Source: Mesostigma viride (Eukaryota; Streptophyta; Mesostigmatophyceae; Mesostigmatales; Mesostigmataceae). Taken from it: a stretch of 64,000 nt of DNA. Below the pieces are notes generated by a model that ran no database searches, had not been told where the DNA came from, and saw nothing but the letters and a program-made list of their open reading frames with translations. The number at the start of each line of letters is the position of its first letter. The first letter of the stretch is position 1. Below are positions 20,318 through 51,083 of this stretch, piece by piece. The stretch covers positions 2,658,874 through 2,722,873 of the forward strand of contig RPFO01000188.1 of assembly GCA_009746045.1 (NCBI GenBank), given 5' to 3'. A program made the position numbers and the translations under genes.

Positions 20318-20668
20318 CATGGTATTCCCTAGTCTGTCATCCCGGTACCTGGTAGTCCCTGGTACAGACCAATAAACACACCAAACCGAAAGCAAAGCCA
20401 CGGGTACATGGGCCGACTGTTGGAATAACTCGGCCAAGTCCCCGAATCTAACATAATAGCTATCAAAAGTCTCAAACAATATCAAAATGACTTTCGACTG
20501 ACCAAACTAATTTATTTTAGGAATTGTTTTACGCCCAAACAAGGGTTAGGGCTGTAACACACAACTAGAAAATGATCAGATAGTTCAGAAATTAGTAAGT
20601 GGGAATGCCACGAACTTTGTCCATGAAAAAAAAAAAAACGCCACCCCAAAAGGCAAGCACAGTGGCCT

Positions 20669-20967
20669 TCAAGGAGATGCGGCAACTGGGTGCAGTTGGA
20701 TCCTGTTCCCATCCACCTCCTTGCCAGCTGGCATGCTCGTTGCCCGGCGCAGCAAGTATATCACCAGCGCAATGTTTACGAAGACAAGCGCTGTAAGGAT
20801 ACAAAAGCCGATGATGACGCCGTTTCGCAGTGCAACTGAGTCGACGCCATCCCCACGCTCGACATAGATCACTTGCGTTGGCGTGTCAATTGGTGGTGGC
20901 GATGGCGGTGGCGGTGGTGGTGGCGGCAGCGGACTGGCAGAAACGTTCTCACCCGGAAGGCCCGTGC
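20669..20967 (-). CDS. Giant gene: last exon (Pro-rich linker, TM helix, tail)
   Basis: The acceptor TTTACAG lies at 20,968 and the exon joins the preceding one in phase (Q-G-T-G-L-P). It encodes SPLPPPPPPPPSPPP, a linker of the hydroxyproline-rich type seen in algal wall proteins. Then VIYVERGDGVDSVALRN leads into a single hydrophobic helix (GVIIGFCILTALVFVN and onward, about 24 residues), LLRR as stop-transfer, and a short cytosolic tail ending in HPVAASP. The exon is 299 nt: two bases completing a codon plus 99 codons including TGA. This places the modules outside the cell and the C terminus inside. Confidence 0.8.
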
Positions 20968-23900
20968 CTGTAAAGAATGGATGCCCACAAGAAAAGAAGC
21001 CATATGAATGAAATCTGAACAGTGGGGCCCTTGCATGGTGAGCCTGAATTTCTGGACATCTTGCATCTGAGAGGCATACATAGCTGAATACATAGTAGCA
21101 GCTGAACTAGAGGGAGTGTAGGGCTGGGGTATTCAAACCTCCTACATTCCACATAAAAGTGGATGCCTACCACACAGCTATTGAGATATGCTCTTGCAGC
21201 GTCATCCATTTCCACAATCTTCACAACACAGAAACCGACCTAACAATATCGAATGCCACATATCATAGCAAAAGAGACAAGAATCTTTAATAGTATAGGT
21301 TATACATCCAAGCCATGTCCTATAAATAAACCATTGCCTGCACCCAGCCTAAACATCTCGGTGAAGACAGCATGCCCAGGACCTTACCTTGTCTGTCCAG
21401 CTGCGAGAAGAAATCGCAGCTGCTGATGCGCTCCTCGGTGAGCGGGTGGCGTATGCCGTTGAAATCCATCAAAGTATTGCAATTGTCACCCCGGACACCC
21501 AGGCCCAGCGGCAACGTGTCCTCGTGACCAACGGGGCACTGGTAGCCCGGCAGCTTGTCATACACCAGGATGATCCCCTGCGGCCCGCGGTTCGGCGCTC
21601 CGATGGGGTCGAAGCACAAGCCCATATCAATGTACAGCATGTCCCCATGGTTGGCCGCAGAGCCAAGGTTGACCCCACGCTGCCTGCTCCAGGCATTCAG
21701 CACAGTCTGAGAAGGCGTGCCAGCACGCAGGAACGCTGCCGTTGTGTGGCATTGCCAGCCCATGTAGGCCAACACGGTCACAATGCGCGGGTTCACAGTT
21801 TGGGGCTGGTTTGGTGTGGGATAACAGCCATCGGTCAAGTCGTACGCCTCGTTCACCTTGAAGACCTTACGCATGCCATTCGGAAGAAGGGTTGCATTAT
21901 ACTGGGCATACTTGTTGTAGAAATCCGCGCCCTCCTGGGTCTTCTGGACAACCGTCACGTTCATGCTGTGGAAGTACAGCAGGCGCAGGTCCGGATAGTC
22001 GGACACCATAGACTGGCCTTGTCCCCAGTACAGGGGCTGCTTCACGGCCGGCTTCTTGCCCATCATGTACCAAGCATGGTGAGACTGGCTGTCGACCAGC
22101 TCAATGCCATGCTCAGCACGCAAGGCTGGGTTCAGCAAGAGATCCATGTTGCGGATGACAGGGTTGGCATCGGAGCAGTTGCTGCCATTCATGAAGCGGA
22201 AGGTCAGGTGCTGCAGGTCCAGGGTGTGGCCGCAGATGACCTGCGTGGACAGCTCAAACATGTCTGCTCCGCCATCAGGCCCCAGGCGTGAAGCACCGTA
22301 TCCGGTACTCAGGCACGTGCCGTAGTACCAGAAGCCTTGCAGCTTGGTGTAGGAGCTGATCACATCAGCCGTGTCGTCCGTGGAATTTGGATTATCACAG
22401 CTAGATATCAGTTTGTTCAGCGGCTCGGGGCCCGTGGGGTTCATGAAGCGGGCGCAAGGGATCGGTGGGCTGGGGCACTCAAAGCCCTGGATCTTGGGCA
22501 GGATGAGGTCGTACTCGTACGGAACGGTGCGCTCGCAGCCTTCAATGTCTGTTGCACATCATTACCAGGTAGGCAGAGCACAGTAATTGTTCCAATCGGT
22601 GAGCCGACTGCTGCAACGAGCAGTCATTGTTCCAAGGTCAGCGGACTGTTGTAACGCGCAGTCATGAATCCAAGGTCAGCAGATGTACACCCGAAATTTC
22701 CGCAATGTATTTACTTTTTTGGGTACCCCCTCGTTTGAGAGGACATGCTATCCCACTTTTATCTCAGGTGACGACCAGTATCCCACGGTATCATGAGTGC
22801 GCGCATGGGCGGGTGTTTGACCATAGCAGCTGTGATGCCTTTGTCACCATATTTATTATATGATATTTGGTGTTCGTTTCATCCCAAATGCCCCACAAGG
22901 ACATTTCCGATAGATACAACAGCCTTTACCAAACCTTTAAGAAATCGAAGCCCTCGGCTTCTCTAGCAACTGCATGAAGGTGCAAAAAGCATTGTCGATG
23001 TGCTTTTGAATACAAGCGAGATCGCTAACGGGCTTGTAGTGGCCAACCAGACCATGAAGGAAGTGGAAGTGGAAGTGGAAGTGGAAGTGGGAGTGGGAGT
23101 GGTGTGCGATTGCGATTGCGATTTGCGATTGCGATTGCGATTGCGATTGCGATTGCGATTGCCATTGCAAGGCAGCTGCGGTGGCTGAAGAGGAAGAGGA
23201 GGTGGAAGAGGAGGAGGAGGAGGAGGAGGAGGAGGAGGAGGAGGAGGAGGAGGAGGAGGAGGAGGAGGAGGAGGAGGAGGAGGAGGAGGAGGAGGAGGAG
23301 GAGGAGGAGGAGGAGGAGGAGGAGGAGGAGGAGGAGGAGGAGGAGGAGGAGGAGGAGGAGGAGGAGGAGGAGGAGGAGGAGGAGGAGGAGGAGGAAGAAA
23401 ACGAAGAAGAAAAAGTAAGGGATATACAGACCAAGAGAAGACAGTAATCTCCCACGTGTGGTTGTTATGATAACGAACTACCAAAGCAGTCAGTGGATTG
23501 CCAGACATTACAGTTTTGGATTGAATTACCTGCCAGCCACAAGGCAGGAGACCCTGTGGCGCCCAGGCCGTGCTTGTGTGCCAAGCTCGCCGGCAGCGGG
23601 GCCACCTCCGAATGGCCGTGGAGAGACTTGCACGAATGGCCCATCCATGCCACCACACGCACAATGCCCGGGAAGGCACGGTCACCGTACACTCCAGTCG
23701 ACGCAGTAGAGCGCGCATCACACCCTGCGCTGATGTCCACAGGGACGCCCACGGCGAACGTCTTGTTGGCGCATGGCCCGATGGCATTCTGCCTGTAGTA
23801 GTTGACCAGCTCTTGGGTAAAGAGGGTGACCGTCACGTTGTGCACGTACTGGTAGGTGGAGCTCATGGTGGGGCCGGGCACCTGAAGGGTTGCAATAACA

Positions 23901-26900
23901 GTGGGATGCCAATATCAGCTGTCTTTCGCCGAGCACGGATAGGAGGCACTCAAGTTTGCCGTTTTAAAACGTGTTAAGCCAGCAACAATACACATCTCCC
24001 CTAGCTAGCCTACCGGTCATGCAAAAAAAAGCTGGGTATGTTCAAAGTTGGTCGGTGATGCCTTACGAATCTCACTCACGGCTGCAGATTATCGGAACTT
24101 GCAAGTAAGCAACGTCACTGCTTACTCAGCATCTCAAGAGGACGGGGAATACATCCATATGTTTAAGTCTAGGTTGGTGAAGATGATGCAGCAGATTGTG
24201 CTATGATTAGGTTTTGTAAATTCTCTCATTTGAAGGGATAATAAAATGCAAGGATGGCTATACTCCCTAGAGCTTGTACTGGTTATGGTAGCCATATAAA
24301 TGGGCCAGTTTAGTGATCACTAATGCAGTTGAATATCATGGTTTTCAGCTAGTACGTTACCAGCAATGGTAACTAAAAAAAGGCTCATTCCAAGGAGGGG
24401 TTATCATCGCAGCCTTCATAATACTAGTACATATTCATCTGCACAACTTATCAAGGTCAAGGAGGGGTTATCATCGCAGCCTTCATAATACTAGTACATA
24501 TACATATTCATCTGCACAACTTATCAAGGTCAAGGAGGGGTTATCATCGCAGCCTTCATAATACCTAGTACATATTCATCTGCACAACTTATCAAGGTCA
24601 AGGAGGGGTTATCATCGCAGCCTTCATAATACCTAGTACATATTCATCTGCACAACTTATCAAGGTCAAGGAGGGGTTATCATCGCAGCCTTCATAATAC
24701 TAGTACATATACATATTCATCTGCACAACTTATCAAGGTGAGCAGGCATGGCTTGGAAGCCATTGTATGCTTCGCCCGTTTCCAAAAGGTGGATATCAAG
24801 GTGTACATAATATTTTGCGCCTGTTACAATTCATGCTCACCACAGGGATGCCCTCATAAGTCTTGTAGCCTCGAGGGAGGGGAGGTTCCGTCGTGTGGCC
24901 GATACCCAAGTGCGCGCCGATGTAAACACTGCAAAGGAGCAAAGGAATCAGGCATATAGTTAGTTGGTTCAGTCAAAGACACCATCATCATGATGGCAGT
25001 GGGTAATGCTCCACGCAAACTCTCCTACCAATGTCATGGGCTCGGCCGACAATTTGCATTATATTCAGTGCACACGAATGGCTGGCACGAGCTATGTGGC
25101 ATGCACTGAGGATACAACTGTTGCACCTACGTGAGAAATGACGGTCACCGCAATGCTCGGCCTCTCGCACAAATGTTCTGAGCCAAGCTACAACAATGAG
25201 GTGTCCAGCAGGAATTGGTCGGATATACACACATGGCACATCGCCGACCTCAGCAGCCTGCAAATGAGCAGCAACAGCCACAGGACATCCCTTTGCCAAG
25301 CAAAGCTTCATACAAGCACTAGCCAATTGCCTACGCACCTCTCCATGATCCTCCCTGACGATTTGATGATGTTGACGTTGATGGAAGCATTCTGGCACGT
25401 CACGCCATCCAGCGAGTACGTCCCGATGTGCCAGTCCAAGTTCACACCGCACACGTGCAGCTTGTAGACGCGCGCAATGTCGACACGCCCGTTGGCAAGC
25501 TCGGGAGGCACACACAGCGCCAGGCCCCAGGCGCCCTGCATGCTCTTAGCCTGATGCACCACCTTAATGGGCTTGGCCTGGTCCACATGCAAAGGGTAGC
25601 TGCGGACATCGAGGTCCTTGATCTGGAAAACTGGTTCAACTGTGCTATTCACCAGAGCAACAGTCTTATTTACCCCTGGAATTCCACGAATGCGCGAGCG
25701 ATCCTCCTCAGACAGGAAATCGCAGCTGCTGATGCGCTCCTCGGTGAGCGGGTGGCGTATGCCGTTGAAATCCATCAAAGTATTGCAATTGTCACCCCGG
25801 ACACCCAGGCCCAGCGGCAACGTGTCCTCGTGACCAACGGGGCACTGGTAGCCTGGCAGCTTGTCATACACCAGGATGATCCCCTGCGGCCCGCGGTTTG
25901 GCGCTCCGATGGGGTCGAAGCACAAGCCCATATCGATGTACAGCATGTCCCCGTGGTTGGCCGCAGAGCCAAGGTTGACCCCACGCTGCCTGCTCCAGGC
26001 ATCCAGCACAGTCTGAGAAGGCGTGCCAGCACGCAGGAACGCTGCCGTTGTGTGGCATTGCCAGCCCATGTAGGCCAACACGGTCACAATGCGCGGGGTC
26101 ACAGTTTGGGGCTGGTTTGGTGTGGGATAACAGCCATCGGTCAAGTCGTACGCCTCGTTCACCTTGAAGACCTTGCGCATGCCATTCGGAAGAAGGGTTG
26201 CATTATACTGGGAATACTTGTTGTAGAAATCCGCGCCCTCCTGGGTCTTCTGGACAACCGTCACGTTCATGCTGTGGAAGTACAGCAGGCGCAGGTCCGG
26301 ATAGTCGGACACCATAGACTGGCCTTGTCCCCAGTACAGGGGCTGCTTCACGGCCGGCTTCTTGCCCATCATGTACCAAGCATGGTGAGACTGGCTGTCG
26401 ACCAGCTCAATGCCATGCTCAGCACGCAAGGCCGGGTTCAGCAAGAGATCCATGTTGCGGATGACAGGGTTGGCATCGGAGCAGTTGCTGCCATTCACGA
26501 AGCGGAAGGTCAGGTGCTGCAGGTCCAGGGTGTGGCCGCAGATGACCTGCGTGGACAGCTCAAACATGTCTGCTCCGCCATCAGGCCCCAGGCGTGAAGC
26601 ACCGTATCCGGTACTCAGGCACGTGCCGTAGTACCAGAAGCCTTGCAGCTTGGTGTAGGAGCTGATCACATCAGCCGTGTCGTCGGTGGAATTCGGATTA
26701 TCACAGCTAGATATCAGTTTGTTCAGCGGCTCGGGGCCCGTGGGGTTCATGAAGCGGGCGCAAGGGATCGGTGGGCTGGGGCACTCAAAGCCCTGGATCT
26801 TGGGCAGGATGAGGTCGTACTCGTACGGAACGGTGCGCTCGCAGCCTTCAATGTCTGTCGTGTATCCCCGGATACAGTACGCAGTGATTATGAGGGTCCA

Positions 26901-29900
26901 TGGAGAGCGTATGCACGGACATTGGATACCGAAAAAATCCAAGAAAAGAAATTGTCAGGTATGCTTCTGCCAAGCATAACTTTGCCACAGAAATACAGCA
27001 GTGCCGCTTACAAGCGTTGAGGAACGGAAAGGACATACAAGTTATGTGTACTTGGTCAGGTCTGGATGTTGGCACAGAACATTAGGTAAGTGGGGAGTGG
27101 GGAGAACTCAGGTAGGTCGAATGTGCTGGAGCTAGGTGTGCTCCATGCAACGGGCCGCCAGGGAGGCAACGACCCTGATATTGACCGTGCAGTCAAGCTT
27201 GGTAGGAGTGTGTGAACTCCATGAAACAGTAGAAAAAAAAACTGGCAACCTTCTCTGGTCAACATCTCCATTATAAGCCTACCTCTAGCATACGTGGGAG
27301 TGAAAATACCTTGCTAAACCTCGGCGTGGTTCACGATAATGTGTTGGACAACCGGGTGGTGTACTGAACGCATGATGGCGATCGAACACAATTCTGTTGT
27401 GGAGGCATGGCCATCTAGAAAAACAAATCGATCCAAAACGCTTTTTATTCGCCTGTGCTAAAACAGCACCTGACTTCAAGCGGCCAAATCAGCGACTGCT
27501 TGCACGGCATGCCAAGGGGCTGCTGCTGACTCACAACATCAGAAACGTGCCTGTAGTGGGGCATCATATTTTTCTTCTCTTCAGAGATACAAGTGCTTGA
27601 GAGACGGAAACAAAGGCTCAGCGGGATCAGCTTCACTGTACCTTTTTCGGCTATATACTTACACATCCCTCAAGCATAGGCTTGGTACCTACTAGGTGCC
27701 TACTAGGTGCCTAATGGCACGGAGCGGCCATCCAGCAATCAGGAGGTATATGCTGTATATGCCGATCACGACAGGAACAGCAGCCACACGGGACGGTCAT
27801 GTACGTACCTGCCAGCCACAAGGCAGGAGACCCTGTGGCGCCCAGGCCGTGCTTGTGTGCCAAGCTCGCCGGCAGCGGGGCCACCTCCGAATGGCCGTGG
27901 AGAGACTTGCACGAATGGCCCATCCATGCCACCACACGTACGATGCCCGGGAAGGCACGGTCACCGTACACTCCCGTGGACGCAGTAGAGGGCGCATCAC
28001 ACCCTGCGCTGATGTCCACAGGGACGCCCACGGCGAACGTCTTGTTGGCGCATGGCCCGATGGCATTCTGGCTGTAGTAGTTGACCAGCTCTTGGGTAAA
28101 GAGGGTGACCGTCACGTTGTGCACGTACTGGTAGGTGGAGCTCATGATAGGGCCGGGCACCTGCAGGCAAGGCACACAATGCAAAGGGTGGCATTCAGTT
28201 GGCAAGGCCAAAGCAAACTGCCTGTCTTAGGGTGGCACAACAGTAGTTTCCTTGACTTGGGGGGGGTTAAATAGGAAACGGCCTGGGATTATTTGATCAT
28301 GAACTAAACTCCAATCGGGACATCAGATAGGACGTAGTTCCGAGATTCCAAGAATCTGACGGTGTGTTAAAAGGCTGACTGTTTTTGGAGACACACATGC
28401 CACTTGGCATTTCAAGCATGTACATACAAGACCAAAACTACTGCCCACAAGGCCCAAAACAACCCTCATTCTAGAACATACCTATCTGCGAAAAGTGCGA
28501 GCATGCATAGTAGTATAACAACAACGAATGTTTGACAAGTGTATACTGGCACGATGATGTTGAAAGACAAGCAAGAGGGGATGAAACTGACAAGGACAGG
28601 GCAGACTTTGAAAACCAACCATGACAACTTAGACCCTCACCTCTGATCAAGCTTGAAACTTCATGGCAACGGCAACGCTACAACAATGCCCACAGCTGCA
28701 GGTTACAGCCCAGCTTCCAGATAAGCTTAGAGCAAGAGCTTTGAACTTTAGGCAAGGGTGACCAGGCACGCGTATCTTACCACAGGGATGCCTTCGTAGG
28801 TCTTGTAGCCACGAGGTAGAGGCGGCTCCGTCTTGTGCCCGACACCCAGATGTGCGCCGATATAGACACTGGGAGGCGGCACAGACCATTTGCAACGAGG
28901 GGCGGTCAAGCAAGGTCCATTGGTAGAGAGAGCAAGTCCGACAGCCAAGTCCCACAGCATGCGGGGAGTAGTATCCAGTCAGCCAGCGAAACTGCCTTAA
29001 CGTGTAGTAGAGCACCGGATTACATGCGTATATGCCAATCCGATACACATAAGAATACTATAAGGCAGGCATGGATAACCAAGACAAGTAACCTCGTATA
29101 GAAAACTTGCAAAAAGCGACGCCAGCACGAGGACACATGTACCTGGCGTACATACCAAACAAGTCAGCCAAGAACAACGACAAGCGTTTTATAAATGAGA
29201 AATAATGGCATACTTGAACATCAGTCACACCATGCCTACCTCTCCATGATCCTCCCCGACGATTGGATGACGTTGACATTGATGGAGGCATTCTGGCACG
29301 TCACGCCATCCAGCGAGTACGTCCCGATGTGCCAGTCCAAGTTCAGACCGCACACGTACAGCTTGTACACGCGCGCAATGTCGACACGCCCGTTGGCAAG
29401 CTCGGGAGGCACACACAGCGCCAGGCCCCACGCACCCTGCATGTCGCGGGTCTGGTCCAACACCTCCATGGGGGCACCCTGGTCCACATGCAAAGGGTAG
29501 CTGCGCAGGTCCAGGTCCTCCACCGGGAAAACAGGCTCCGGCGTTTGTTCTAACTCCGGGGTGGGCTCCTCCAGCGCAGGCAAACCACGGTTGCGCGAGC
29601 GATCCTCCTCAGACAGGAAATCGCAGCTGCTGATGCGCTCCTCGGTGAGCGGGTGGCGTATGCCGTTGAAATCCATCAAAGTATTGCAATTGTCACCCCG
29701 GACACCCAGGCCCAGCGGCAACGTGTCCTCGTGACCAATGGGGCACTGGTAGCCTGCCAGCTTGTCATACACCAGGATGAGCGCCAGCGGCCCGCGGTTT
29801 GGCGCTCCGATGGGGTCGAAGCACATGCCCAAATCAATGTACAGCATGTCCCCATGGTTGGCCGCAGAGCCAAGGTTGACCCCACGCTGCCTGCTCCAGG

Positions 29901-32900
29901 CATCCAGCACAGTCTGAGAAGGCGTGCCAGCACGCAGGAACGCTGCCGTCGTGTGGCATTGCCAGCCCATGTAGGCCAACACGGTCACAATGCGCGGGTC
30001 ACAGTTTGGGGCTGGTTTGGTGTGGGATAACAGCCATCGGTCAAGTCGTACGCCTCGTTCACCTTGAAGACCTTGCGCATGCCATTCGGAAGAAGGGTTG
30101 CATTATACTGGGAATACTTGTTGTAGAAATCCGCGCCCTCCTGGGTCTTCTGGACAACCGTCACGTTCATGCTGTGGAAGTACAGCAGGCGCAGGTCCGG
30201 ATAGTCGGACACCATAGACTGGCCTTGTCCCCAGTACAGGGGCTGCTTCACGGCCGGCTTCTTGCCCATCATGTACCAAGCATGGTGAGACTGGCTGTCG
30301 ACCAGCTCAATGCCATGCTCAGCACGCAAGGCCGGGTTCAGCAAGAGATCCATGTTGCGGATGACAGGGTTGGCATCGGAGCAGTTGCTGCCATTCACGA
30401 AGCGGAAGGTCAGGTGCTGCAGGTCCAGGGTGTGGCCGCAGATGACCTGCGTGGACAGCTCAAACATGTCTGCTCCGCCATCAGGCCCCAGGCGTGAAGC
30501 ACCGTATCCGGTACTCAGGCACGTGCCGTAGTACCAGAAGCCTTGCAGCTTGGTGTAGGAGCTGATCACATCAGCCGTGTCGTCGGTGGAATTCGGATTA
30601 TCACAGCTAGATATCAGTTTGTTCAGCGGCTCGGGGCCCGTGGGGTTCATGAAGCGGGCGCAAGGGATCGGTGGGCTGGGGCACTCAAAGCCCTGGATCT
30701 TGGGCAGGATGAGGTCGTACTCGTACGGAACGGTGCGCTCGCAGCCTTCAATGTCTGTCGTGTATCCCCGGATACAGTACGCAGTGATTATGAGGGTCCA
30801 TGGAGAGCGTATGCACGGACATTGGATACCGAAAAAATCCAAGAAAAGAAATTGTCAGGTATGCTTCTGCCAAGCATAACTTTGCCACAGAAATACAGCA
30901 GTGCCGCTTACAAGCGTTGAGGAACGGAAAGGACATACAAGTTATGTGTACTTGGTCAGGTCTGGATGTTGGCACAGAACATTAGGTAAGTGGGGAGTGG
31001 GGAGAACTCAGGTAGGTCGAATGTGCTGGAGCTAGGTGTGCTCCATGCAACGGGCCGCCAGGGAGGCAACGACCCTGATATTGACCGTGCAGTCAAGCTT
31101 GGTAGGAGTGTGTGAACTCCATGAAACAGTAGAAAAAAAAACTGGCAACCTTCTCTGGTCAACATCTCCATTATAAGCCTACCTCTAGCATACGTGGGAG
31201 TGAAAATACCTTGCTAAACCTCGGCGTGGTTCACGATAATGTGTTGGACAACCGGGTGGTGTACTGAACGCATGATGGCGATCGAACACAATTCTGTTGT
31301 GGAGGCATGGCCATCTAGAAAAACAAATCGATCCAAAACGCTTTTTATTCGCCTGTGCTAAAACAGCACCTGACTTCAAGCGGCCAAATCAGCGACTGCT
31401 TGCACGGCATGCCAAGGGGCTGCTGCTGACTCACAACATCAGAAACGTGCCTGTAGTGGGGCATCATATTTTTCTTCTCTTCAGAGATACAAGTGCTTGA
31501 GAGACGGAAACAAAGGCTCAGCGGGATCAGCTTCACTGTACCTTTTTCGGCTATATACTTACACATCCCTCAAGCATAGGCTTGGTACCTACTAGGTGCC
31601 TACTAGGTGCCTAATGGCACGGAGCGGCCATCCAGCAATCAGGAGGTATATGCTGTATATGCCGATCACGACAGGAACAGCAGCCACACGGGACGGTCAT
31701 GTACGTACCTGCCAGCCACAAGGCAGGAGACCCTGTGGCGCCCAGGCCGTGCTTGTGTGCCAAGCTCGCCGGCAGCGGGGCCACCTCCGAATGGCCGTGG
31801 AGAGACTTGCACGAATGGCCCATCCATGCCACCACACGTACGATGCCCGGGAAGGCACGGTCACCGTACACTCCCGTGGACGCAGTAGAGGGCGCATCAC
31901 ACCCTGCGCTGATGTCCACAGGGACGCCCACGGCGAACGTCTTGTTGGCGCATGGCCCGATGGCATTCTGGCTGTAGTAGTTGACCAGCTCTTGGGTAAA
32001 GAGGGTGACCGTCACGTTGTGCACGTACTGGTAGGTGGAGCTCATGATAGGGCCGGGCACCTGCAGGCAAGGCACACAATGCAAAGGGTGGCATTCAGTT
32101 GGCAAGGCCAAAGCAAACTGCCTGTCTTAGGGTGGCACAACAGTAGTTTCCTTGACTTGGGGGGGGTTAAATAGGAAACGGCCTGGGATTATTTGATCAT
32201 GAACTAAACTCCAATCGGGACATCAGATAGGTACGTAGTTCCGAGATTCCAAGAATCTGACGGTGTGTTAAAAGGCTGACTGTTTTTGGAGACACACATG
32301 CCACTTGGCATTTCAAGCATGTACATACAAGACCAAAACTACTGCCCACAAGGCCCAAAACAACCCTCATTCTAGAACATACCTATCTGCGAAAAGTGCG
32401 AGCATGCATAGTAGTATAACAACAACGAATGTTTGACAAGTGTATACTGGCACGATGATGTTGAAAGACAAGCAAGAGGGGATGAAACTGACAAGGACAG
32501 GGCAGACTTTGAAAACCAACCATGACAACTTAGACCCTCACCTCTGATCAAGCTTGAAACTTCATGGCAACGGCAACGCTACAACAATGCCCACAGCTGC
32601 AGGTTACAGCCCAGCTTCCAGATAAGCTTAGAGCAAGAGCTTTGAACTTTAGGCAAGGGTGACCAGGCACGCGTATCTTACCACAGGGATGCCTTCGTAG
32701 GTCTTGTAGCCACGAGGTAGAGGCGGCTCCGTCTTGTGCCCGACACCCAGATGTGCGCCGATATAGACACTGGGAGGCGGCACAGACCATTTGCAACGAG
32801 GGGCGGTCAAGCAAGGTCCATTGGTAGAGAGAGCAAGTCCGACAGCCAAGTCCCACAGCATGCGGGGAGTAGTATCCAGTCAGCCAGCGAAACTGCCTTA

Positions 32901-38900: not shown

Positions 38901-41900
38901 GCTTGGTAGGAGTGTGTGAACTCCATGAAACAGTAGAAAAAAAAAACTGGCAACCTTCTCTGGTCAACATCTCCATTATAAGCCTACCTCTGGCATACGT
39001 GGGAGTGAAAATACCTTGCTAAACCTCAGCGTGAATCACGATAATGTGTTGGACAACCGGGTGGTGTACTGAACGCATGATGGCGATCGAACACAATTCT
39101 GTTGTGGAGGCATGGCCATCTAGAAAAACAAATCGATCCAAAACGCTTTTTATTCGCCTGTGCTAAAACAGCACCTGACTTCAAGCGGCCAAATCAGCGA
39201 CTGCTTGCACGGCATGCCAAGGGGCTGCTGCTGACTCACAACATCAGAAACGTGCCTGTAGTGGGGCATCATATTTTTCTTCTCTTCAGAGATACAAGTG
39301 CTTGAGAGACGGAAACAAAGGCTCAGCGGGATCAGCTTCACTGTACCTTTTTCGGCTATATACTTACACATCCCTCAAGCATAGGCTTGGTACCTACTAG
39401 GTCCCTACTAGGTGCCTAACCCCACGGAGCGGCCATCCAGCAATCAGGAGGTATATGCTGTATATGCCGATCACGACAGGAACAGCAGCCACACGGGACG
39501 GTCATGTACGTACCTGCCAGCCACAAGGCAGGAGACCCTGTGGCGCCCAGGCCGTGCTTGTGTGCCAAGCTCGCCGGCAGCGGGCCACCTCCGAATGGCC
39601 GTGGAGAGACTTGCACGAATGGCCCATCCATGCCACCACACGTACGATGCCCGGGAAGGCACGGTCACCGTACACTCCCGTGACGCAGTAGAGGGCGCAT
39701 CACACCCTGCGCTGATGTCCACAGGGACGCCCACGGCGAACGTCTTGTTGGCGCATGGCCGATGGCATTCTGGCTGTAGTAGTTGACCAGCTCTTGGGTA
39801 AAGAGGGTGACCGTCACGTTGTGCACGTACTGGTAGGTGGAGCTCATGATAGGGCCGGGCACCTGCAGGCAAGGCACACAATGCAAAGGGTGGCATTCAG
39901 TTGGCAAGGCCAAAGCAAACTGCCTGTCTTAGGGTGGCACAACAGTAGTTTCCTTGACTTGGGGGGGGTTAAATAGGAAACGGCCTGGGATTATTTGATC
40001 ATGAACTAAACTCCAATCGGGACATCAGATAGGTACGTAGTTCCGAGATTCCAAGAATCTGACGGTGTGTTAAAAGGCTGACTGTTTTTGGAGACACACA
40101 TGCCACTTGGCATTTCAAGCATGTACATACAAGACCAAAACTACTGCCCACAAGGCCCAAAACAACCCTCATTCTAGAACATACCTATCTGCGAAAAGTG
40201 CGAGCATGCATAGTAGTATAACAACAACGAATGTTTGACAAGTGTATACTGGCACGATGATGTTGAAAGACAAGCAAGAGGGGATGAAACTGACAAGGAC
40301 AGGGCAGACTTTGAAAACCAACCATGACAACTTAGACCCTCACCTCTGATCAAGCTTGAAACTTCATGGCAACGGCAACGCTACAACAATGCCCACAGCT
40401 GCAGGTTACAGCCCAGCTTCCAGATAAGCTTAGAGCAAGAGCTTTGAACTTTAGGCAAGGGTGACCAGGCACGCGTATCTTACCACAGGGATGCCTTCGT
40501 AGGTCTTGTAGCCACGAGGTAGAGGCGGCTCCGTCTTGTGCCCGACACCCAGATGTGCGCCGATATAGACACTGGGAGGCGGCACAGACCATTTGCAACG
40601 AGGGGCGGTCAAGCAAGGTACATTGGTAGAGAGAGCAAGTCCGACAGCCAAGTCCAACAGCATGCGGGGAGTAGTATCCAGTCAGCCAGCGAAACTGCCT
40701 TAACGTGTAGTAGAGCACCGGATTACATGCGTATATGCCAATCCGATACACATAAGAATACTATAAGGCAGGCATGGATAACCAAGACAAGTAACCTCGT
40801 ATAGAAAACTTGCAAAAAGCGACGCCAGCACGAGGACACATGTACCTGGCGTACATACCAAACAAGTCAGCAAGAACAACGACAAGCGTTTTATAAATGA
40901 GAAATAATGGCATACTTGAACATCAGTCACACCATGCTACCTCTCCATGATCCTCCCCGACGATTGGATGACGTTGACATTGATGGAGGCATTCTGGCAC
41001 GTCACGCCATCCAGCGAGTACGTCCCGATGTGCCAGTCCAAGTTCAGACCGCACACGTACAGCTTGTACACGCGCGCAATGTCGACACGCCCGTTGGCAA
41101 GCTCGGGAGGCACACACAGCGCCAGGCCCCACGCACCTGCATGTCGCGGGTCTGGTCCAACACCTCCATGGGGCACCCTGGTCCACATGCAAAGGGTAGC
41201 TGCGCAGGTCGGTCCTCCACCGGGAAAACAGGCTCCGGCGTTTGTTCTAACTCCGGGGTGGGCTCCTCCAGCGCAGGCAAACCACGGTTGCGCGAGCGAT
41301 CCTCCTCAGACAGGAAATCGCAGCTGCTGATGCGCTCCTCGGTGAGCGGGTGGCGTATGCCGTTGAAATCCATCAAAGTATTGCAATTGTCACCCCGGAC
41401 CCAGGCCCAGCGGCAACGTGTCCTCGTGACCAATGGGGCACTGGTAGCCTGCCAGCTTGTCATACACCAGGATGAGCGCCAGCGGCCCGCGTTTGGCGCT
41501 CCGATGGGTCGAAGCACATGCCCAAATCAATGTACAGCATGTCCCCATGGTTGGCCGCAGAGCAAGGTTGACCCCACGCTGCTGCTCCAGGCATCCAGCA
41601 CAGTCTGAGAAGGCGTGCCAGCACGCAGGAACGCTGCCGTCGTGTGGCATTGCCAGCCCATGTAGGCCAACACGGTCACAATGCGCGGGTCACAGTTTGG
41701 GGCTGGTTTGGTGTGGATAACAGCCATCGTCAAGTCGTACGCCTCGTTCACCTTGAAGACCTTGCGCATGCCATTCATGAGAGGGTTGCATTATACTGGG
41801 AATACTTGTTGTAGAAATCCGCGCCCTCCTGGGTCTTCTGGACAACCGTCACGTTCATGCTGTGGAAGTACGCAGGCGCTGGTCCGGATAGTCGGACACC

Positions 41901-44900
41901 ATAGAGCTGGCCTTGGCCCAGTACAGGGGCTGCTCACGGCCGGCTTCTAGGCCCATCATGTACAAGCATGGTGGTGGCTGTCCTCCTAGAATGCATGCCT
42001 TGCGTAGGGTATCCGTACCACGTTACCTACGTGCATGGACAAGGTGGCACCTGCACATAGGTGCCATGTAAGGGCAGTGTGATGATGCAGTTATGTTTCC
42101 CCATCATTGTGGAAGGGAAATGTATTGTTTGGCATGGTTGGTAGCCATATTAGTAGGTAGTATGCCCACCCCTACCCCCTTGGTTGCTTTTTACCAACGG
42201 TGCCCCTATGGGCTGTACTGGGTGTAACTGCTGGTATACCCACCCAAATGATGACACCAATGGCTCAAACTGTTCAGCAACTAATTGTTTATCATCCCTG
42301 AAGTGGTAGGTGCCTAGGTCTTATAACATAATTCAAAATGCACATTCTACCAAAAATGAAAACGCGCGTCTTGACCCCCCTGACTTTGACGGCAGTTATA
42401 TATGGCCTACCCTGCATATATGTGAGGTTGTGATATACCAACCCGAAGGGCAACTCATGGACGTGCTTGGCCCCCAAGGACAGCCATTGGATATGGGTAG
42501 GTTGGATGGCATCTGGTTTGCAAAATTGTGAAGATCCAGCCGATTTATCGGCAGGATCTCAGACCATTTAGGGGCTAATGGCACGGAACGGCCATCCAGC
42601 AATCAGGAGGTATATGCTGTATATGCCGATCATGACAGGAACAGCAGCCACACGGGACGGTCATGTACGTACCTGCCAGCCACAAGGCAGGAGACCCTGT
42701 GGCGCCCAGGCCGTGCTTGTGTGCCAAGCTCGCCGGCAGCGGGGCCACCTCCGAATGGCCGTGGAGAGACTTGCACGAATGGCCCATCCATGCCACCACA
42801 CGTACGATGCCCGGGAAGGCACGGTCACCGTACACTCCCGTCGACGCAGTAGAGGGCGCATCACACCCTGCGCTGATGTCCACAGGGATGCCCACGGCGA
42901 ACGTCTTGTTGGCGCATGGCCCGATGGCATTCTGGCTGTAGTAGTTGACCAGCTCTTGGGTAAAGAGGGTGACCGTCACGTTGTGCACGTACTGGTAGGT
43001 GGAGCTCATGATAGGGCCGGGCACCTGCAGGCAAGGCACACAATGCAAAGGGTGGCATTCAGTTGGCAAGGCCAAAGCAAACTGCCTGTCTTAGGGTGGC
43101 ACAACAGTAGTTTCCTTCACTTGGGGGGGGGGTTAAATAGGAAACGGCCTGGGATTATTTGATCATGAACTAAACTCCAATCGGGACATCAGATAGGTAC
43201 GTAGTTCCGAGATTCCAAGAATCTGACGGTGTGTTAAAAGGCTGACTGTTTTTGGAGACACACATGCCACTTGGCATTTCAAGCATGTACATACAAGACC
43301 AAAACTACTGCCCACAAGGCCCAAAACAACCCTCATTCTAGAACATACCTATCTGCGAAAAGTGCGAGCATGCATAGTAGTATAACAACAACGAATGTTT
43401 GACAAGTGTATACTGGCACGATGATGTTGAAAGACAAGCAAGAGGGGATGAAACTGACAAGGACAGGGCAGACTTTGAAAACCAACCATGACAACTTAGA
43501 CCCTCACCTCTGATCAAGCTTGAAACTTCATGGCAACGGCAACGCTACAACAATGCCCACAGCTGCAGGTTACAGCCCAGCTTCCAGATAAGCTTAGAGC
43601 AAGAGCTTTGAACTTTAGGCAAGGGTGACCAGGCACGCGTATCTTACCACAGGGATGCCTTCGTAGGTCTTGTAGCCACGAGGTAGAGGCGGCTCCGTCT
43701 TGTGCCCGACACCCAGATGTGCGCCGATATAGACACTGGGAGGCGGCACAGACCATTTGCAACGAGGGGCGGTCAAGCAAGGTCCATTGGTAGAGAGAGC
43801 AAGTCCGACAGCCAAGTCCCACAGCATGCGGGGAGTAGTATCCAGTCAGCCAGCGAAACTGCCTTAACGTGTAGTAGAGCACCGGATTACATGCGTATAT
43901 GCCAATCCGATACACATAAGAATACTATAAGGCAGGCATGGATAACCAAGACAAGTAACCTCGTATAGAAAACTTGCAAAAAGCGACGCCAGCACGAGGA
44001 CACATGTACCTGGCGTACATACCAAACAAGTCAGCCAAGAACAACGACAAGCGTTTATAAATGAGAAATAATGGCATACTTGAACATCAGTCACACCATG
44101 CCTACCTCTCCATGATCCTCCCCGACGATTGGATGACGTTGACATTGATGGAGGCATTCTGGCACGTCACGCCATCCAGCGAGTACGTCCCGATGTGCCA
44201 GTCCAAGTTCAGACCGCACACGTACAGCTTGTACACGCGCGCAATGTCGACACGCCCGTTGGCAAGCTCGGGAGGCACACACAGCGCCAGGCCCCACGCA
44301 CCCTGCATGTCGCGGGTCTGGTCCAACACCTCCATGGGGGCACCCTGGTCCACATGCAAAGGGTAGCTGCGCAGGTCCAGGTCCTCCACCGGGAAAACAG
44401 GCTCCGGCGTTTGTTCTAACTCCGGGGTGGGCTCCTCCAGCGCAGGCAAACCACGGTTGCGCGAGCGATCCTCCTCAGACAGGAAATCGCAGCTGCTGAT
44501 GCGCTCCTCGGTGAGCGGGTGGCGTATGCCGTTGAAATCCATCAAAGTATTGCAATTGTCACCCCGGACACCCAGGCCCAGCGGCAACGTGTCCTCGTGA
44601 CCAATGGGGCACTGGTAGCCTGCCAGCTTGTCATACACCAGGATGAGCGCCAGCGGCCCGCGGTTTGGCGCTCCGATGGGGTCGAAGCACATGCCCAAAT
44701 CAATGTACAGCATGTCCCCATGGTTGGCCGCAGAGCCAAGGTTGACCCCACGCTGCCTGCTCCAGGCATCCAGCACAGTCTGAGAAGGCGTGCCAGCACG
44801 CAGGAACGCTGCCGTCGTGTGGCATTGCCAGCCCATGTAGGCCAACACGGTCACAATGCGCGGGGTCACAGTTTGGGGCTGGTTTGGTGTGGGATAACAG

Positions 44901-47900
44901 CCATCGGTCAAGTCGTACGCCTCGTTCACCTTGAAGACCTTGCGCATGCCATTCGGAGAAGGGTTGCATTATACTGGGAATACTTGTTGTAGAAATCCGC
45001 GCCCTCCTGGGTCTTCTGGACAACCGTCACGTTCATGCTGTGGAAGTACAGCAGGCGCAGGTCCGGATAGTCGGACACCATAGACTGGCCTTGTCCCCAG
45101 TACAGGGGCTGCTTCACGGCCGGCTTCTTGCCCATCATGTACCAAGCATGGTGAGACTGGCTGTCGACCAGCTCAATGCCATGCTCAGCACGCAAGGCCG
45201 GGTTCAGCAAGAGATCCATGTTGCGGATGACAGGGTTGGCATCGGAGCAGTTGCTGCCATTCACGAAGCGGAAGGTCAGGTGCTGCAGGTCCAGGGTGTG
45301 GCCGCAGATGACCTGCGTGGACAGCTCAAACATGTCTGCTCCGCCATCAGGCCCCAGGCGTGAAGCACCGTATCCGGTACTCAGGCACGTGCCGTAGTAC
45401 CAGAAGCCTTGCAGCTTGGTGTAGGAGCTGATCACATCAGCCGTGTCGTCCGTGGAATTCGGATTATCACAGCTAGATATCAGTTTGTTCAGGTGCTCGG
45501 GGCCCGTGGGGTTCATGAAGCGGGCGCAAGGGATCGGTGGGCTGGGGCACTCAAAGCCCTGGATCTTGGGCAGGATGAGGTCGTACTCGTACGGAACGGT
45601 GCGCTCGCAGCCTTCGATGTCTGTCGTGTATCCCCCCGGATATAGTACGCAGTGATTATGAGGGTCCATGAAGAGCGTATGCACGGACATTGGATACCGA
45701 AAAAATCCAAGAAAAGAAATTGTCAGGTATGCTTCTGCCAAGCATAACTTTGCCACAGAAATACAGCAGCGCTGCTTACAAGCTTTGAGGAATGGAAAGG
45801 ACATACAAGTTATGTGTACTTGGTCAGGTCTGGACGTTGGCACAGAACATTAGGTAAGTGGGGAGTGGGGAGAGCGCAGGTAGGTCGAATGTGCTGGAGC
45901 TAGGTGCCCTCCATGCAACGGGCCGCCAGGGAGGCAACGACCCTGATATTGACCGTGCAGTCAAGCTTGGTAGGAGTGTGTGAACTCCATGAAACAGTAG
46001 AAAAAAAAAACTGGCAACCTTCTCTGGTCAACATCTCCATTATAAGCCTACCGCTGGCATACGCGGGAGTGAAAATACCTTGCTAAACCTCAGCGTGAAT
46101 CACAGTAATGTGTTGGACAACCGGGTGGTGTACTGAACGCATGATGGCAATCGGACACTACTCTGTTGTGGTGGCATGGCCATCTAGAAAAAAAATTGAT
46201 CCAAAAGGCTTTTTATTTGCCTGTGCTAGAGGCAACACCTGACTTCAAGCGGCCAAATCAGCGACTGCTTGCACGGCATGCCAAGGGGCTGCTGCTGACT
46301 CACAACATCAGAAACGTGCCTGTAGTGGAGTATCGTATTTTTCTTCTCTTCAGAGATACAAGTGCTTGAGAGACGGAAACAAAGGCTCAGCGGGATCAGC
46401 TTCACTGCACCTTTTTCGGCTATATACTTACGCATCCCTCAAGCATAGGCTTGGTACCTACTAGGTGCCTAATGGCACGGAACGGCCATCTAGCAATCAG
46501 GAGGTATATGCTGTATATGCTGATCATGACAGGAACAACGGCCACACGGGACGGTCATGTACGTACCTGCCAGCCACAAGGCAGGAGACCCTGTGGCGCC
46601 CAGGCCGTGCTTGTGTGCCAAGCTCGCCGGCAGCGGGGCCACGTCCGAATGGCCGTGGAGAGACTTGCACGAATGGCCCATCCATGCCACCACACGTACG
46701 ATGCCCGGGAAGGCACGGTCACCATACACTCCCGTCGACGCAGTAGAGGGCGCATCACACCCTGCGCTGATGTCCACAGGGACGCCCACGGCGAACGTCT
46801 TGTTGGCGCATGGCCCGATGGCATTCTGGCTGTAGTAGTTGACCAGCTCTTGGGTAAAGAGGGTGACCGTCACGTTGTGCACGTACTGGTAGGTGGAGCT
46901 CATGATAGGGCCGGGCACCTGCAGGCAAGGCAGGCGCAACAGTATTCAGTATGATGTCAAATCGCCTTGGTAAGCGGACACAGCATGTCAGTAAAGTAGT
47001 CATTGGCGAAACCCAGACCTTCCATTTATCATCAGGTGGAGCCAATTTTCGGAAGAACGGTTAGGTTCGCCAGAATTAGCGAAGGCCGTACACGTGAGAA
47101 AAGACATAGGAATAGGGGATAAAATCGGTCAATCCATACATACATCCACCGAATTGGTCCCTAATTTGCAAGCATAAGGGTGAGGTTCTTCCGAAAATTG
47201 GCTCCGCCGTAGAGTTTCAACGGGCAAGTTGCAAACACGCACGTTACTTGATTCAACTAAAAGAGCTGAGATAGCGGCAGGAGCAGCACACATACGACAG
47301 TTCAGCAGAGCATGCGTGATTGCACTGTGGCTGCTAGCAGTGAAAGGTAGAAGCCAGACTTTCATATAGGGCTCACCATGGTGAGTCGTGCACACACTAC
47401 TGAACTGTTATCAATTCTGAATTACACTTGTCAGGGCGTGGAGAACATACAGATTATTGCATATTGCCTATATGCCTGCGCACAGGATTGGTTGACTGAT
47501 TTAAGACGACTGGGGGGGTTTGCAGGTTTACAACATAAACTTAGCCTGCAGTGCCCGGCCATGTCCTGAATGGTCAGGTGGTAAGTAGATTACTGCAAGT
47601 ACCAGGCACGCTGGAATCGTATCAGAAACCATGCTTCTCACTACTACTTATGCACGCTAACGAGAATGCATTGCACTCCGCTGCGCTGGCAGTCGGCAGC
47701 ATACCACTGTTCCACAGGGTGTACCAGGCCTGAAATGCCTTAGCGTTGCCTTCCAACAGCTTCCAACTTGGTTGCGCTGGCCATTCAATCCTTCCCCCCT
47801 GCCCCCCCCACCCCCCGCACCCCCCACCCCACCCCCTCCCTCATTCCCTCCCTCCCTCCCTCCCTCCCTCCCTCCCTCCCTCCCTCCCTCCCTCCCTCCC

Positions 47901-49814
47901 TCCCTCCCTCCCTCCCTCCCTCCCTCCCTCCCTCCCTCCCTCCCTCCCTCCCTCCCTCCCTCCCTCCCTCCCTCCCTCCCTCCCTCCCTCCCTCCATCCC
48001 TTCCTCCCTTGGCCCCTCTTTCGGCCTCCCCGCGGTGTTTCGTCCCTTCCTCCCCTCCCCTCATTGCGTTCCACTTCCAAGTCCCCCCCCCAATGGCCCG
48101 CCTCCCAGTATCTTTCTTCCCTGTCATTAGTCTCACTACGTTTGGATCACTTTAAAACTGCGATAAAAGGTGTTACACGTAGATCCAAAGCACGCGGGCA
48201 AAGAATAATCACAGATCGCAGCTGGCGTGATGCAACTTACCACGGGAGTGCCCTCATATGTCTTGTATCCCTTAGGGAGAGGAGGCTCTGTTTTGTGCCC
48301 GATGCCGAAGTGTGCTCCCACATAAACGCTGCAGCCAAGTGAGGGCATTGGAAGCATAGAATATGTGCCATCAACCTCAGCAGATGGGTTCGTGAAACTA
48401 GACAGACTGTATGGTGGAACAATATTATTAGAAAACAGGATGCCGGCTAGAAAAAGCATACAATGTTGTCACTGTACATCTTCTACATACACTGTTGTCA
48501 CTGTGCATCTTCTAGTAACATGTAATCCAGGTATGAGCCTGCAAACCCCACCAAGCTGTGCAATTCAATGTACTACTTCCTGGATAAAACTTTGACCCTA
48601 GCAGTCCATGAGTTCGCAACCATACAGCTGGTCCAAGAGGGCTTTTGCATTGTGAGCCATACATAAGAAGTGCAGCAGCAGCGCCACATAACCATGTGCA
48701 AACAGGGTATGGCAGTACTATCCAACGATTGTGGGATTGAGAGAACTTGTAAGGTGATGGCACTGCGCTTCGCGTTGCTCACATTCTATTACACCACCCC
48801 AACGTAAATGGAAATGTATGTCACACTATTATTGGACTAGGGTCTTGCCAATGTTGATGTCACCGACAGCGTGGGCTATTCTACTTGCGAACCCATACAA
48901 TTGCCAGTAAACAGAATTACCTTTGGCTGCATTTGAGCTACTAATTTACGACGACCAGTCAAACCCAACCTTCCTTCCATGTGTGACCCCAGACATTCTG
49001 ATTCTAAGAACAATCAGCGTCGCCAAGGCAGAGCTCTGCACCCACCGAATGATCAACACGGACATTACTGGGCAATTAATGCCTCCTCAACTCGGCACAG
49101 CAGGCAGCCACAAATGGCAGCTGGGCCTGCCAACCCGGCGTCAGCAGCAGCCGAAACCCTAAATTTGCCGTGCCGCTGCGGTCCAATACCGGGTAAGACC
49201 CAGCGCTTGCGGACCCACACTATGCCTATCATGGACATTATGGGCATTGGGCGGTGTTATACTGGTATACAACAAGAACTGTTTCATGTCAATCATGTTA
49301 GCTTGTATGCACATATAACCATATTAAATAGCATACTCTGTTTGCCTCTTATGATCCAACGAAGCTGGCGTCTTATCGACATTATCCCTTACCTTTCCAG
49401 GACGACGGCGGATGTTTGCAGAACATTTACGTTGATAGATTCATTCCTGCAAGCTTGCCCATCTTTTAAAGCGTAGGTCGCGATATGCCAGTCCATGTTC
49501 AGGCCACAGACGAAAAGTTTGTAGACCCGTGCTATGTCGGACCGCCCTTCTGCGCTTCCTGGAGGCAGGCACATAGCCAGTCCCCACGCGCCCTGCATAT
49601 CACGGGTCTGATCTAGAACTTTGAATGGATATCCTTGGTCAACGTGCAGAGGATAGCGACGGAGATCAAGATAGTCCGCGTTGAACGGTCCTTGCGCCTG
49701 CACTGCCCTAGGAATAAATGCCCATGCTCCGACTAGAAGCAGTTGCACGAGGACCGGGAAAGCCAATGACGACGCCATTGCTTTGATCGCGCACCACATT
49801 TTTGTGCCAATCAT
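20669..49814 (-). CDS. Giant modular type I membrane glycoprotein, seven exon trios
   Basis: I reconstruct 23 exons: a signal-peptide exon, seven trios of 88 nt (S), 352 nt (M) and about 1,516 nt (L), and a final exon. S starts after AG in phase 2 and ends in phase 0; M goes from phase 0 to 1; L from phase 1 to 2; all donors are GT and acceptors AG. The protein would be about 4,000-4,700 residues: signal peptide, seven modules of about 650 residues, a proline-rich linker, one transmembrane helix and a 26-residue tail. Each module has about eight N-glycosylation sequons and many Cys, so it is extracellular. I recognise no known domain; an ECM, adhesion or receptor role is inference. Three L exons are one base short, and trio 2 lacks part of L, so the gene as assembled is interrupted. 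Confidence 0.75.
21388..24928 (-). CDS. Giant gene: exon trio 7 (C-terminal module)
   Basis: S 24,928-24,841, M 23,881-23,530, L 22,548-21,388. S is the most diverged copy (GIGHTTEPPLPRGYKTYEG). M differs from the others at a few residues (VPGPTMSS, YYRQN, CDARST). L is 1,161 nt because the module-start segment is absent: it ends ISSCDFFSQLDRQ with a GTAAGG donor and joins the membrane exon. The introns are unrelated to the array introns and hold GAG, GATTGC and 68-bp repeats. This end module is thus older or freer from homogenisation. Confidence 0.75.
23058..23170. repeat. (GGAAGT)n and (GATTGC)n microsatellites
   Basis: In an intron of the giant gene (L7-M7), about seven GGAAGT/GGGAGT units (23,058-23,100) are followed by about ten GATTGC units (23,107-23,170). 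They explain repetitive open frames there, which are not genes. Confidence 0.85.
23206..23394. repeat. (GAG)n microsatellite, about 190 bp
   Basis: This is an almost pure GAG/CTC repeat in the same intron. It produces poly-Glu, poly-Arg, poly-Ser and poly-Pro open frames on both strands, none supported as genes. Confidence 0.95.
24391..24738 (+). repeat. Five tandem ~68-bp repeats
   Basis: Units begin at 24,391, 24,458, 24,531, 24,599 and 24,667 with CAAGGAGGGGTTATCATCGC. They differ by the presence of TACATA in two units and one extra C in two others. The array lies in the M7-S7 intron, just downstream of the S7 exon in transcript order. It has no spacers, so it is a minisatellite. Confidence 0.9.
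25339..28868 (-). CDS. Giant gene: exon trio 6
   Basis: S 28,868-28,781, M 28,160-27,809, L 26,854-25,339 (1,516 nt, intact frame, donor GTGCGT). L reads DIEGCERTVPYEYD at its start, ISSCDFLSEEDRSR at the module end, then a linker GVNKTVALVNSTVEP that differs completely from the EEPTPELEQTPEP linker of the other copies. The next module start follows (DLDVRSYPLHVDQ to INVNIIKSSGRIME). The linker has its own sequons. Its donor-side intron differs from the array, marking the left edge of the near-identical region. Confidence 0.75.
29240..32769 (-). CDS. Giant gene: exon trio 5 (L exon one base short)
   Basis: S 32,769-32,682, M 32,060-31,709, L 30,754-29,240. L has 1,515 nt; a G is missing in the run at 29,996-29,998 relative to trios 3 and 6, breaking the frame inside TVTPRIVTV. 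Everything else is nearly identical to trios 4 and 6, including introns. As assembled the reading frame is lost here; the same base is missing in trio 4. Confidence 0.7.
33141..36671 (-). CDS. Giant gene: exon trio 4 (L exon one base short)
   Basis: S 36,671-36,584, M 35,962-35,611, L 34,655-33,141. L has 1,515 nt with a G missing at 33,897-33,899, the same position as in trio 5. S and M are intact at 88 and 352 nt. The sharing of one deletion by adjacent units fits either duplication after the mutation or a systematic base-calling error in a GGGG run. Confidence 0.7.
37043..40571 (-). CDS. Giant gene: exon trio 3 (intact L, damaged M)
   Basis: S 40,571-40,484 (88 nt), M 39,862-39,514 (349 nt), L 38,558-37,043 (1,516 nt, intact, the best full exon of the array). 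M has lost three single bases (near 39,582, 39,680 and 39,760), so its frame returns only at the end. L carries the complete module body, including CGHTLDLQHLTFRFVNGSN, the ISSCDFLSEEDRSR end and an EEPTPELEQTPEP linker. Confidence 0.7.
40941..43735 (-). pseudogene. Giant gene: exon trio 2, truncated L exon
   Basis: S 43,735-43,648 and M 43,024-42,673 are intact (88 and 352 nt). L is represented only by about 41,975-40,941: its first ~460 bases and its acceptor are missing, replaced by unrelated sequence at 41,985-42,570. The remaining part has more than ten single-base deletions relative to other copies (for example at GACCCAGG near 41,399 and GTCGGTCC near 41,209). It cannot be spliced into frame as written. 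Real decay or a low-quality assembly join are both possible. Confidence 0.6.
41985..42570. other. Unrelated block inside the array
   Basis: About 590 bp with no similarity to the array units replaces roughly 1.36 kb of unit sequence. It holds a plus-strand frame at 42,310-42,531 that looks protein-like (LHICEVVIYQPEGQLMDVLG) but has no recognised family. It may be an insertion-deletion or a mis-join. Confidence 0.6.
44106..48328 (-). CDS. Giant gene: exon trio 1
   Basis: S 48,328-48,241 (acceptor CTGCAG, reading SVYVGAHFGIGHKTEPPLPK), M 46,918-46,567, L 45,620-44,106. S is diverged from the array copies, whereas M and L are array-like. L is one base short (1,515 nt) at 44,956-44,958 (GGAGAAG instead of GGAAGAAG), which breaks the frame in NATLLPNGMRK. 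The S-M intron is unique and carries a (TCCC)n tract and a small inverted-repeat element. Confidence 0.75.
47036..47210. mobile_element. Small inverted-repeat element in intron
   Basis: GGAGCCAATTTTCGGAAGAAC at about 47,038 is repeated inverted at about 47,188 (21 bp, perfect), with a spacer of about 130 bp. It is absent from the other S-M introns, so it is probably a MITE inserted in this intron alone. Confidence 0.45.
47845..47993. repeat. (TCCC)n microsatellite, about 150 bp
   Basis: An almost pure CCCT repeat in the S1-M1 intron. The Pro/Ser- and Gly/Arg/Glu-rich frames through it are artefacts of the repeat. Confidence 0.95.
49393..49814 (-). CDS. Giant gene: first exon (signal peptide and module start)
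   Basis: ATG 49,814 opens MIGTKMWCAIKAMASSLAF followed by a strongly hydrophobic PVLVQLLLVGAWAFI and a likely signal-peptidase site near AVQA-QGP (about residue 40). Later ATGs at residues 6 and 13 could also serve. Then comes the module-start segment (YLDLRRYPLHVDQG, QTRDMQGAWGLAMC, DWHIATYAL), ending VVLE plus a split codon at donor GTAAGG. The exon has 422 nt and ends in phase 2, fitting S1. The match to the module start inside each L exon shows that module and exon boundaries are offset. Confidence 0.8.
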
Positions 49815-50965: not shown

Positions 50966-51083
50966 GCCCGTGCAGTGGGGCTTGAGGTCAGCAAGAAGAC
51001 AGACGGAGGCTTTGGCGATTGGGCTCACTCAGCCACCGCCCGCCCTCTGTCTTCTTGCTGACCTCAAGCCCCACTGCACGGGC
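50966..51083. repeat. 38-bp perfect inverted repeat of LINE sequence
   Basis: Arms 50,966-51,003 and 51,046-51,083 are exact reverse complements with a 42-bp loop. Both arms encode the LINE segment after the YADD box (AVGLEVSKKT). The minus-strand arm continues into the RT fragment to the right. Confidence 0.85.

Follow-up and report, generated by a model that had tools for sequence, protein, structure and literature searches.

The row of exons on the minus strand of this Mesostigma viride sequence reads as one gene, whose product would be a large, probably membrane-anchored surface protein. Taken as a whole, the evidence is best explained by a secreted, membrane-anchored modular surface protein that is encoded by this single minus-strand gene and likely contributes to a coat at the cell or flagellar membrane, a reading that we consider probable. 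An earlier note had described a signal-peptide exon, seven S-M-L exon trios and a Pro-rich/TM exon that link in phase at GT-AG splice sites, and this description is borne out: the exons join in frame, and all 21 introns for which both ends were mapped (369-1,322 nt in length) have the form GT...AG. The same note took the gene to be hidden in a row of ORFs, which it is not, since a shorter, three-unit form is already annotated as Mv12224-RA. The chain consists of exon 1, seven S, seven M and seven L exons (one of the L exons being a fragment) and a last exon, and is listed here from 5′ to 3′, with positions counted in the window, i.e. the whole stretch of 64,000 nucleotides that was analysed.

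49393-49814 (-): exon 1, 422 nt, opens with a signal-peptide-like segment and carries the first D domain; GT at its phase-2 end; hydropathy; matches Mv12224-RA from the exon's second Met
48241-48328 (-): S exon, unit 1, of the old type and different from S2 at 24 sites; exon mapping, dN/dS, Mv12224-RA
46567-46918 (-): M exon, unit 1, intact; exact variant absent from Mv12224-RA
44106-45620 (-): L exon, unit 1, 1,515 nt; frame broken by a one-base homopolymer loss
43648-43735 (-): S exon, unit 2; exon mapping, Mv12224-RA
42673-43024 (-): M exon, unit 2; exon mapping, Mv12224-RA
40941-41982 (-): L exon, unit 2, fragment without its 5′ part; preceded by unrelated sequence and with 22 indel events, probably an unpolished or misjoined stretch
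40484-40571 (-): S exon, unit 3; exon mapping
39514-39862 (-): M exon, unit 3, 349 nt; three single-base losses in homopolymers
37043-38558 (-): L exon, unit 3, 1,516 nt, intact; protein identical to the first L of Mv12224-RA
36584-36671 (-): S exon, unit 4; exon mapping
35611-35962 (-): M exon, unit 4; exon mapping, Mv12224-RA
33141-34655 (-): L exon, unit 4, 1,515 nt; lacks one base in a homopolymer
32682-32769 (-): S exon, unit 5; exon mapping
31709-32060 (-): M exon, unit 5; exon mapping, Mv12224-RA
29240-30754 (-): L exon, unit 5, 1,515 nt; aligns with L4 without an indel, so that the loss in L4 is common to both
28781-28868 (-): S exon, unit 6; exon mapping
27809-28160 (-): M exon, unit 6; exon mapping, Mv12224-RA
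25339-26854 (-): L exon, unit 6, 1,516 nt, intact, with a D domain that has diverged; exon mapping, dN/dS, Mv12224-RA
24841-24928 (-): S exon, unit 7, of the old type; distance to S2, dS 1.23 and dN 0.03; Mv12224-RA
23530-23881 (-): M exon, unit 7, 344 of 352 positions identical to M2; introns on both flanks unrelated
21388-22548 (-): L exon, unit 7, 1,161 nt, other 3′ end, without D domain; splices to the last exon
20669-20967 (-): last exon, with Pro-rich stretch, TM-like segment, short tail and stop; Mv12224-RA uses an inner acceptor, with the exon from 20790
20511-20516 (-): AATAAA polyadenylation-like signal, ∼150 nt beyond the stop; sequence motif

The lengths of 88, 352 and 1,516 nt that had been given for every undamaged copy hold for S in all seven copies and for M in six of seven (M3 has 349 nt), whereas the figure for L comes from two copies only: among the five L exons with both ends, L3 and L6 measure 1,516 nt and L1, L4 and L5 measure 1,515 nt. 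An undamaged trio adds up to 88 + 352 + 1,516 = 1,956 nt, or 3 × 652, and encodes 652 codons. The exon junctions have phase 2 from exon 1 to S, 0 from S to M, 1 from M to L, 2 from L to the next S and 1 from L7 to the last exon, and stops lie in frame upstream of the start codon. Two introns carry simple repeats, (CCCT)n at 47834-48009 between S1 and M1 and (GAG)n at 23190-23395 between M7 and L7, and both introns are unlike those of the array. The ∼590 nt between M2 and the L2 fragment (41983-42572, minus strand) are likewise unlike the M-L intron of the array and represent either a misjoin or an insertion.

Elsewhere in the window, a LINE-like reverse transcriptase ORF lies at 52441-54288 on the plus strand (RVT_1, E 1.9e-23), and a second, broken reverse-transcriptase-like stretch (51064-51600, minus strand; RVT_1, E 0.0013, below the cut-off) is found ∼1.2 kb upstream of the 5′ end of the gene. 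A Mutator-like transposase ORF occupies 13649-15607 on the minus strand (PF20700, E 2e-26), and a long plus-strand ORF at 61622-63289, hydrophobic and Trp-rich in its first half and followed by His/Gly-rich repeats, has no Pfam match. Long-period tandem repeats outside the gene are present at 9366-10680 and 56595-57457 (332/442 and 291 nt, respectively).

The exons can be recognised as real without recourse to RNA because their divergent copies combine an excess of synonymous change with exon ends and splice sites that are kept beside unrelated introns. The S exons are of three kinds (S1, S2-6 and S7). Between S1 and S2 there are 24 differences, of which 18 fall at third positions; 17.0 are counted over 22.5 synonymous sites and 7.0 over the remaining 67.5. 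Likewise, 13 of the 16 differences between S7 and S2 are at third positions (dS 1.23, dN 0.03). D1, the D domain encoded by exon 1, differs from its counterpart in L3 (D3) at 89 sites, 56 of them third positions, with synonymous sites saturated and a dN of 0.18. S retains its 88 nt and its AG/GT ends although the introns beside S1 and S7 are unrelated to the rest, having no BLAST similarity to the other introns at E ≤ 1e-3; in the divergent exon copies generally, the ends are kept and the differences fall mainly at third positions while the introns are unrelated. The recent copies, with dN/dS from 0.15 (L6-L7) to 0.67 (M1-M2), carry few changes and are weak evidence in this respect.

The second line of evidence is the independent gene model jgi/Mesvir1 Mv12224-RA (EukProt, Mesostigma viride, P0001), a protein of 2,013 aa that shares exon types and repeat junctions with the assembled locus but has three trios. 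Its order is exon 1 from the second Met, S1-M2-L3, S2-M4-L6, S7-M7-L7 and the end of the last exon, and S1, S2, S7, M2, M4, M7, L3, L6 and L7 are each matched by exact protein identity. Exons and junctions thus identify the model as the same gene, from which the assembled locus differs in the start Met, the 3′ acceptor, the number of units and the variants M1 and L1, which are absent from Mv12224-RA. The model joins L7 at 20790 instead of 20967, so that the Pro-rich part is lost together with some of the TM segment. The "-RA" name follows MAKER style. The CCAC 1140 paper, in its available text, describes a short-read assembly annotated by MAKER with the aid of transcript evidence (PMC7027972), and "maker" is absent from the available main text of the NIES-296 paper (PMC6947507). 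From the form of the name together with this difference between the two papers, we infer that Mv12224-RA derives from CCAC 1140.

Joining of a single gene over the S-M, M-L and L-S junctions is thus strongly supported by conservation and by the independent gene model, both read at the sequence level. That each unit is instead its own gene or transcript is very improbable: the L exons alone do form long open frames, but each opens at an acceptor, with the frame upstream running only into intron, the phases fit as a chain, and the exons are joined in Mv12224-RA. The expectation that each L exon would appear as an orphan ORF of ∼535 residues is correct for two of the seven, which have open frames of 539-548 aa, whereas L7 has a frame of 412 aa and the frames of L1, L4 and L5 fall into two pieces each. 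Of the proposed single giant protein with seven units, the one gene therefore stands; the seven continuous units are not supported, given the three units of Mv12224-RA and frame damage in five of the seven units.

As assembled, 18 of the 23 exon copies are intact and five are damaged (L1, L2, L4, L5 and M3), and only units 6 and 7 are wholly intact. L1, L4 and L5 have each lost one homopolymer base, all three losses in M3 are in homopolymers, and 12 of the 22 indel events in L2, which is preceded by unrelated sequence, are homopolymer losses. Homopolymer losses are the type of error expected from PacBio RSII data. The damage looks like residual long-read error combined with poor gap filling, and the loss common to L4 and L5 could be inherited. 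Were the frame breaks real, the array would be decaying in this strain and would yield no more than a short secreted product that terminates within the first L exon, which we think unlikely. The rearranged unit 2, the one-base deficits of L1, L4 and L5, with a site common to L4 and L5 as in an inherited lesion, and a dN/dS among recent copies of up to 0.67 (M1-M2, three changes) and 0.47 (L3-L6) would all be compatible with decay. However, these three single losses, like all those of M3 and the 12 in L2, are homopolymer events of the PacBio RSII type; the published NIES-296 genome (442 Mb, 2,363 scaffolds) was, according to the text available, made from PacBio RSII data with gap filling and polishing (PMC6947507); every exon type has intact copies both here and in Mv12224-RA; and the old copies S1, S7 and D1 are under strong purifying selection.

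It is similarly doubtful that the gene really comprises about three units, in the manner of Mv12224-RA, and that the seven-unit array is an inflation of the assembly. The three units of the model are of three recognisable kinds, and there is a misjoined, error-rich stretch within units 2 and 3, both of which would suit such an inflation. Against it, units 1, 3, 4, 5 and 6 are mutually distinct by substitutions and unit 7 is distinct from the rest. With units 2 and 7 left out, units 1, 3, 4 and 5 differ pairwise by 8-52 substitutions over ∼3.9 kb and from unit 6 by 79-127 substitutions over 2.8 kb; most copies are therefore probably real and separate. Moreover, Mv12224-RA, to judge from its MAKER-style name, probably stems from a short-read assembly (PMC7027972, available text), in which units that are 99% identical would tend to collapse. 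By arithmetic, Mv12224-RA with four further units would amount to ∼4,600 aa.

Unequal exchange of a phase-symmetric (2-2) block of 3.9 kb would have enlarged the array, whose left edge lies 14 nt before M1 and whose right edge is the donor of L6. At the DNA level, similarity among the M exons and among the L exons is mostly 94-99%. It was unexpected that M7 and L7 are ∼98-99% identical to the array while the introns adjoining them are unrelated: L7 has 98.95% identity to L6 over 1,143 nt from its start, the 100 bases on each side of M7 match the array at near-chance level apart from the splice sites, and the identity of M7, and that of L7 at its 5′ end, ends at the exon edge. Homogenisation therefore ends at exon edges. 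The synonymous divergences also differ widely, being 1.23 for S7 (to S2), 0.047 for M7-M2, 0.031 for L6-L7 and 0.238 for D3-D6, and neighbouring parts of the gene therefore differ in age.

Conversion that halts at exon edges would keep the M and L exons alike, and its limitation by the diverged introns would be the plainest account of this pattern. Conversion through a cDNA rather than at the DNA level is improbable, even though similarity breaks off at the exon edge both for M7 and at the 5′ end of L7, and reverse-transcriptase sequence lies near the gene, because no intron has been lost, the 88-nt S7, a neighbour in the mRNA, is unconverted, and the same edges also follow from ordinary conversion that halts at heterology. 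Genes can grow by tandem duplication of phase-symmetric exon groups, with equal end phases and concerted evolution. The present gene resembles these in the duplication of a block with equal end phases and in its concerted evolution, but differs in having ∼98-99% identical exons beside unrelated introns in its last unit, which makes it a clear case of homogenised exons with introns that are not homogenised.

The protein would run from a signal peptide, presumably cleaved, through units of ∼652 residues to a Pro-rich stalk and end in a single TM segment with a short tail. The signal peptide and TM helix anticipated for the joined protein are predicted as far as hydropathy goes, with hydrophobic segments at both ends (19-residue maxima of 2.1 in exon 1 and 2.8 in the last exon, where the Pro-rich stretch is also found). 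The exon trio and the domain unit are out of register by one D domain, such that exon 1 supplies the first D and the last L is without one. The 652-residue unit, which has 19 Cys and 8 N-glycosylation motifs (Mv12224-RA has 58 and 26), is an old two-fold repeat, its halves aligning with 85 identities in 333 columns and a score of 102, compared with 34.5 (SD 5.1, maximum 61) for 300 shuffles. Each unit would thus comprise two half-units, of ∼300 and 352 residues, rich in Cys and in motifs that may be glycosylated, and three Cys are invariant in all four D/C rows of the alignment. An AlphaFold2 model of an L exon (6 rows) reached a pLDDT of 27 and was discarded. The D-domain model (4 rows) is weak, with three strands and a pLDDT of 56.4; Foldseek returned nothing at E ≤ 0.001 among the best 50 of its 368 matches, which were not used.

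No relative outside Mesostigma was found among 5.77 billion proteins, Pfam, PDB sequences, viral contigs and prokaryote genomes, the protein search reaching lengths of ∼296 to 4,646 aa and relatives with exact 5-residue words in common; that the protein is unknown elsewhere holds only at these sensitivities. In its own genome (439.9 Mb, 2,243 contigs), the L protein has at least 14 matches at E ≤ 0.01, all 14 of them within this gene, and no second locus at that threshold. Pfam gave nothing above the cut-off for an L exon, an M-exon frame, exon 1, the last-exon frame or Mv12224-RA. The best match below it, PRIMA1 (19.2 bits of 38.6), was taken as chance, as were the PDB sequence matches at E ≤ 10 to a beta-glucanase (E 0.023) and a response regulator (1.5). 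The half-unit alignment gave 16 pattern matches in viral and 47 in prokaryote contigs, none of which was confirmed. The name Mv12224 was not found in the literature searched, and none of the papers found for Mesostigma coat or repeat surface proteins evidently concerns it.

The likely job of the protein would be as part of a coat at the cell or flagellar membrane, as for FMG1 on Chlamydomonas cilia. In the text available from the two papers, FMG1B has 4,389 aa and a TM anchor (PMC7759384), and its chain comprises 34 Ig-like repeats, each ∼110 aa long (PMC12021028, section 2.3). A member of the FMG1 family would be expected to have such repeats as Ig-like beta chunks with one conserved disulfide. 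The anchor of FMG1B is described as a single predicted helix (PMC7759384) and as multi-helix (PMC12021028), and adhesion is raised when both FMG1 isoforms are lost (PMC12021028). As portrayed there, FMG1B/FMG1A and the Mesostigma protein, the latter as predicted, are alike as very large N-glycosylated surface proteins of green flagellates, with cysteine-bearing repeats and a C-terminal linker and membrane anchor (PMC12021028, PMC7759384). In contrast, the FMG1 repeats are ∼110 aa long and ∼22% identical, whereas the Mesostigma units have 652 aa in two half-units, and their exons are far closer in DNA. No FMG1 chain appeared in the PDB sequence search at E ≤ 10, in a copy that may lack FMG1B (PDB 9GOS) and by a sequence comparison that may miss a relative when FMG1 repeats are only ∼22% mutually alike. 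The layout is like that of FMG1 and the job may be; this likeness is one of description, and we claim neither homology nor family membership.

On the best reading, the gene encodes a candidate N-glycosylated, membrane-anchored coat protein of the cell or flagellum, which may work like Chlamydomonas FMG1. A more tentative possibility, which we rate as rather less than even, is a coat protein of variable length, in which strains would differ in the number of 3.9 kb in-frame blocks (three in one model, about seven here) and thereby set the reach of the coat, while conversion confined to exons would keep the modules alike, the introns would drift apart, and the module would represent a domain family unknown elsewhere. 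The gene also demonstrates how near-identical internal repeats can disrupt one gene model and may shorten a second one for the same species. The surface of Mesostigma is covered by layers of scales (PMC10762512, available text), and for this scaly biflagellate near the streptophyte base the analysis offers a candidate coat protein, built from a domain without a detected relative.
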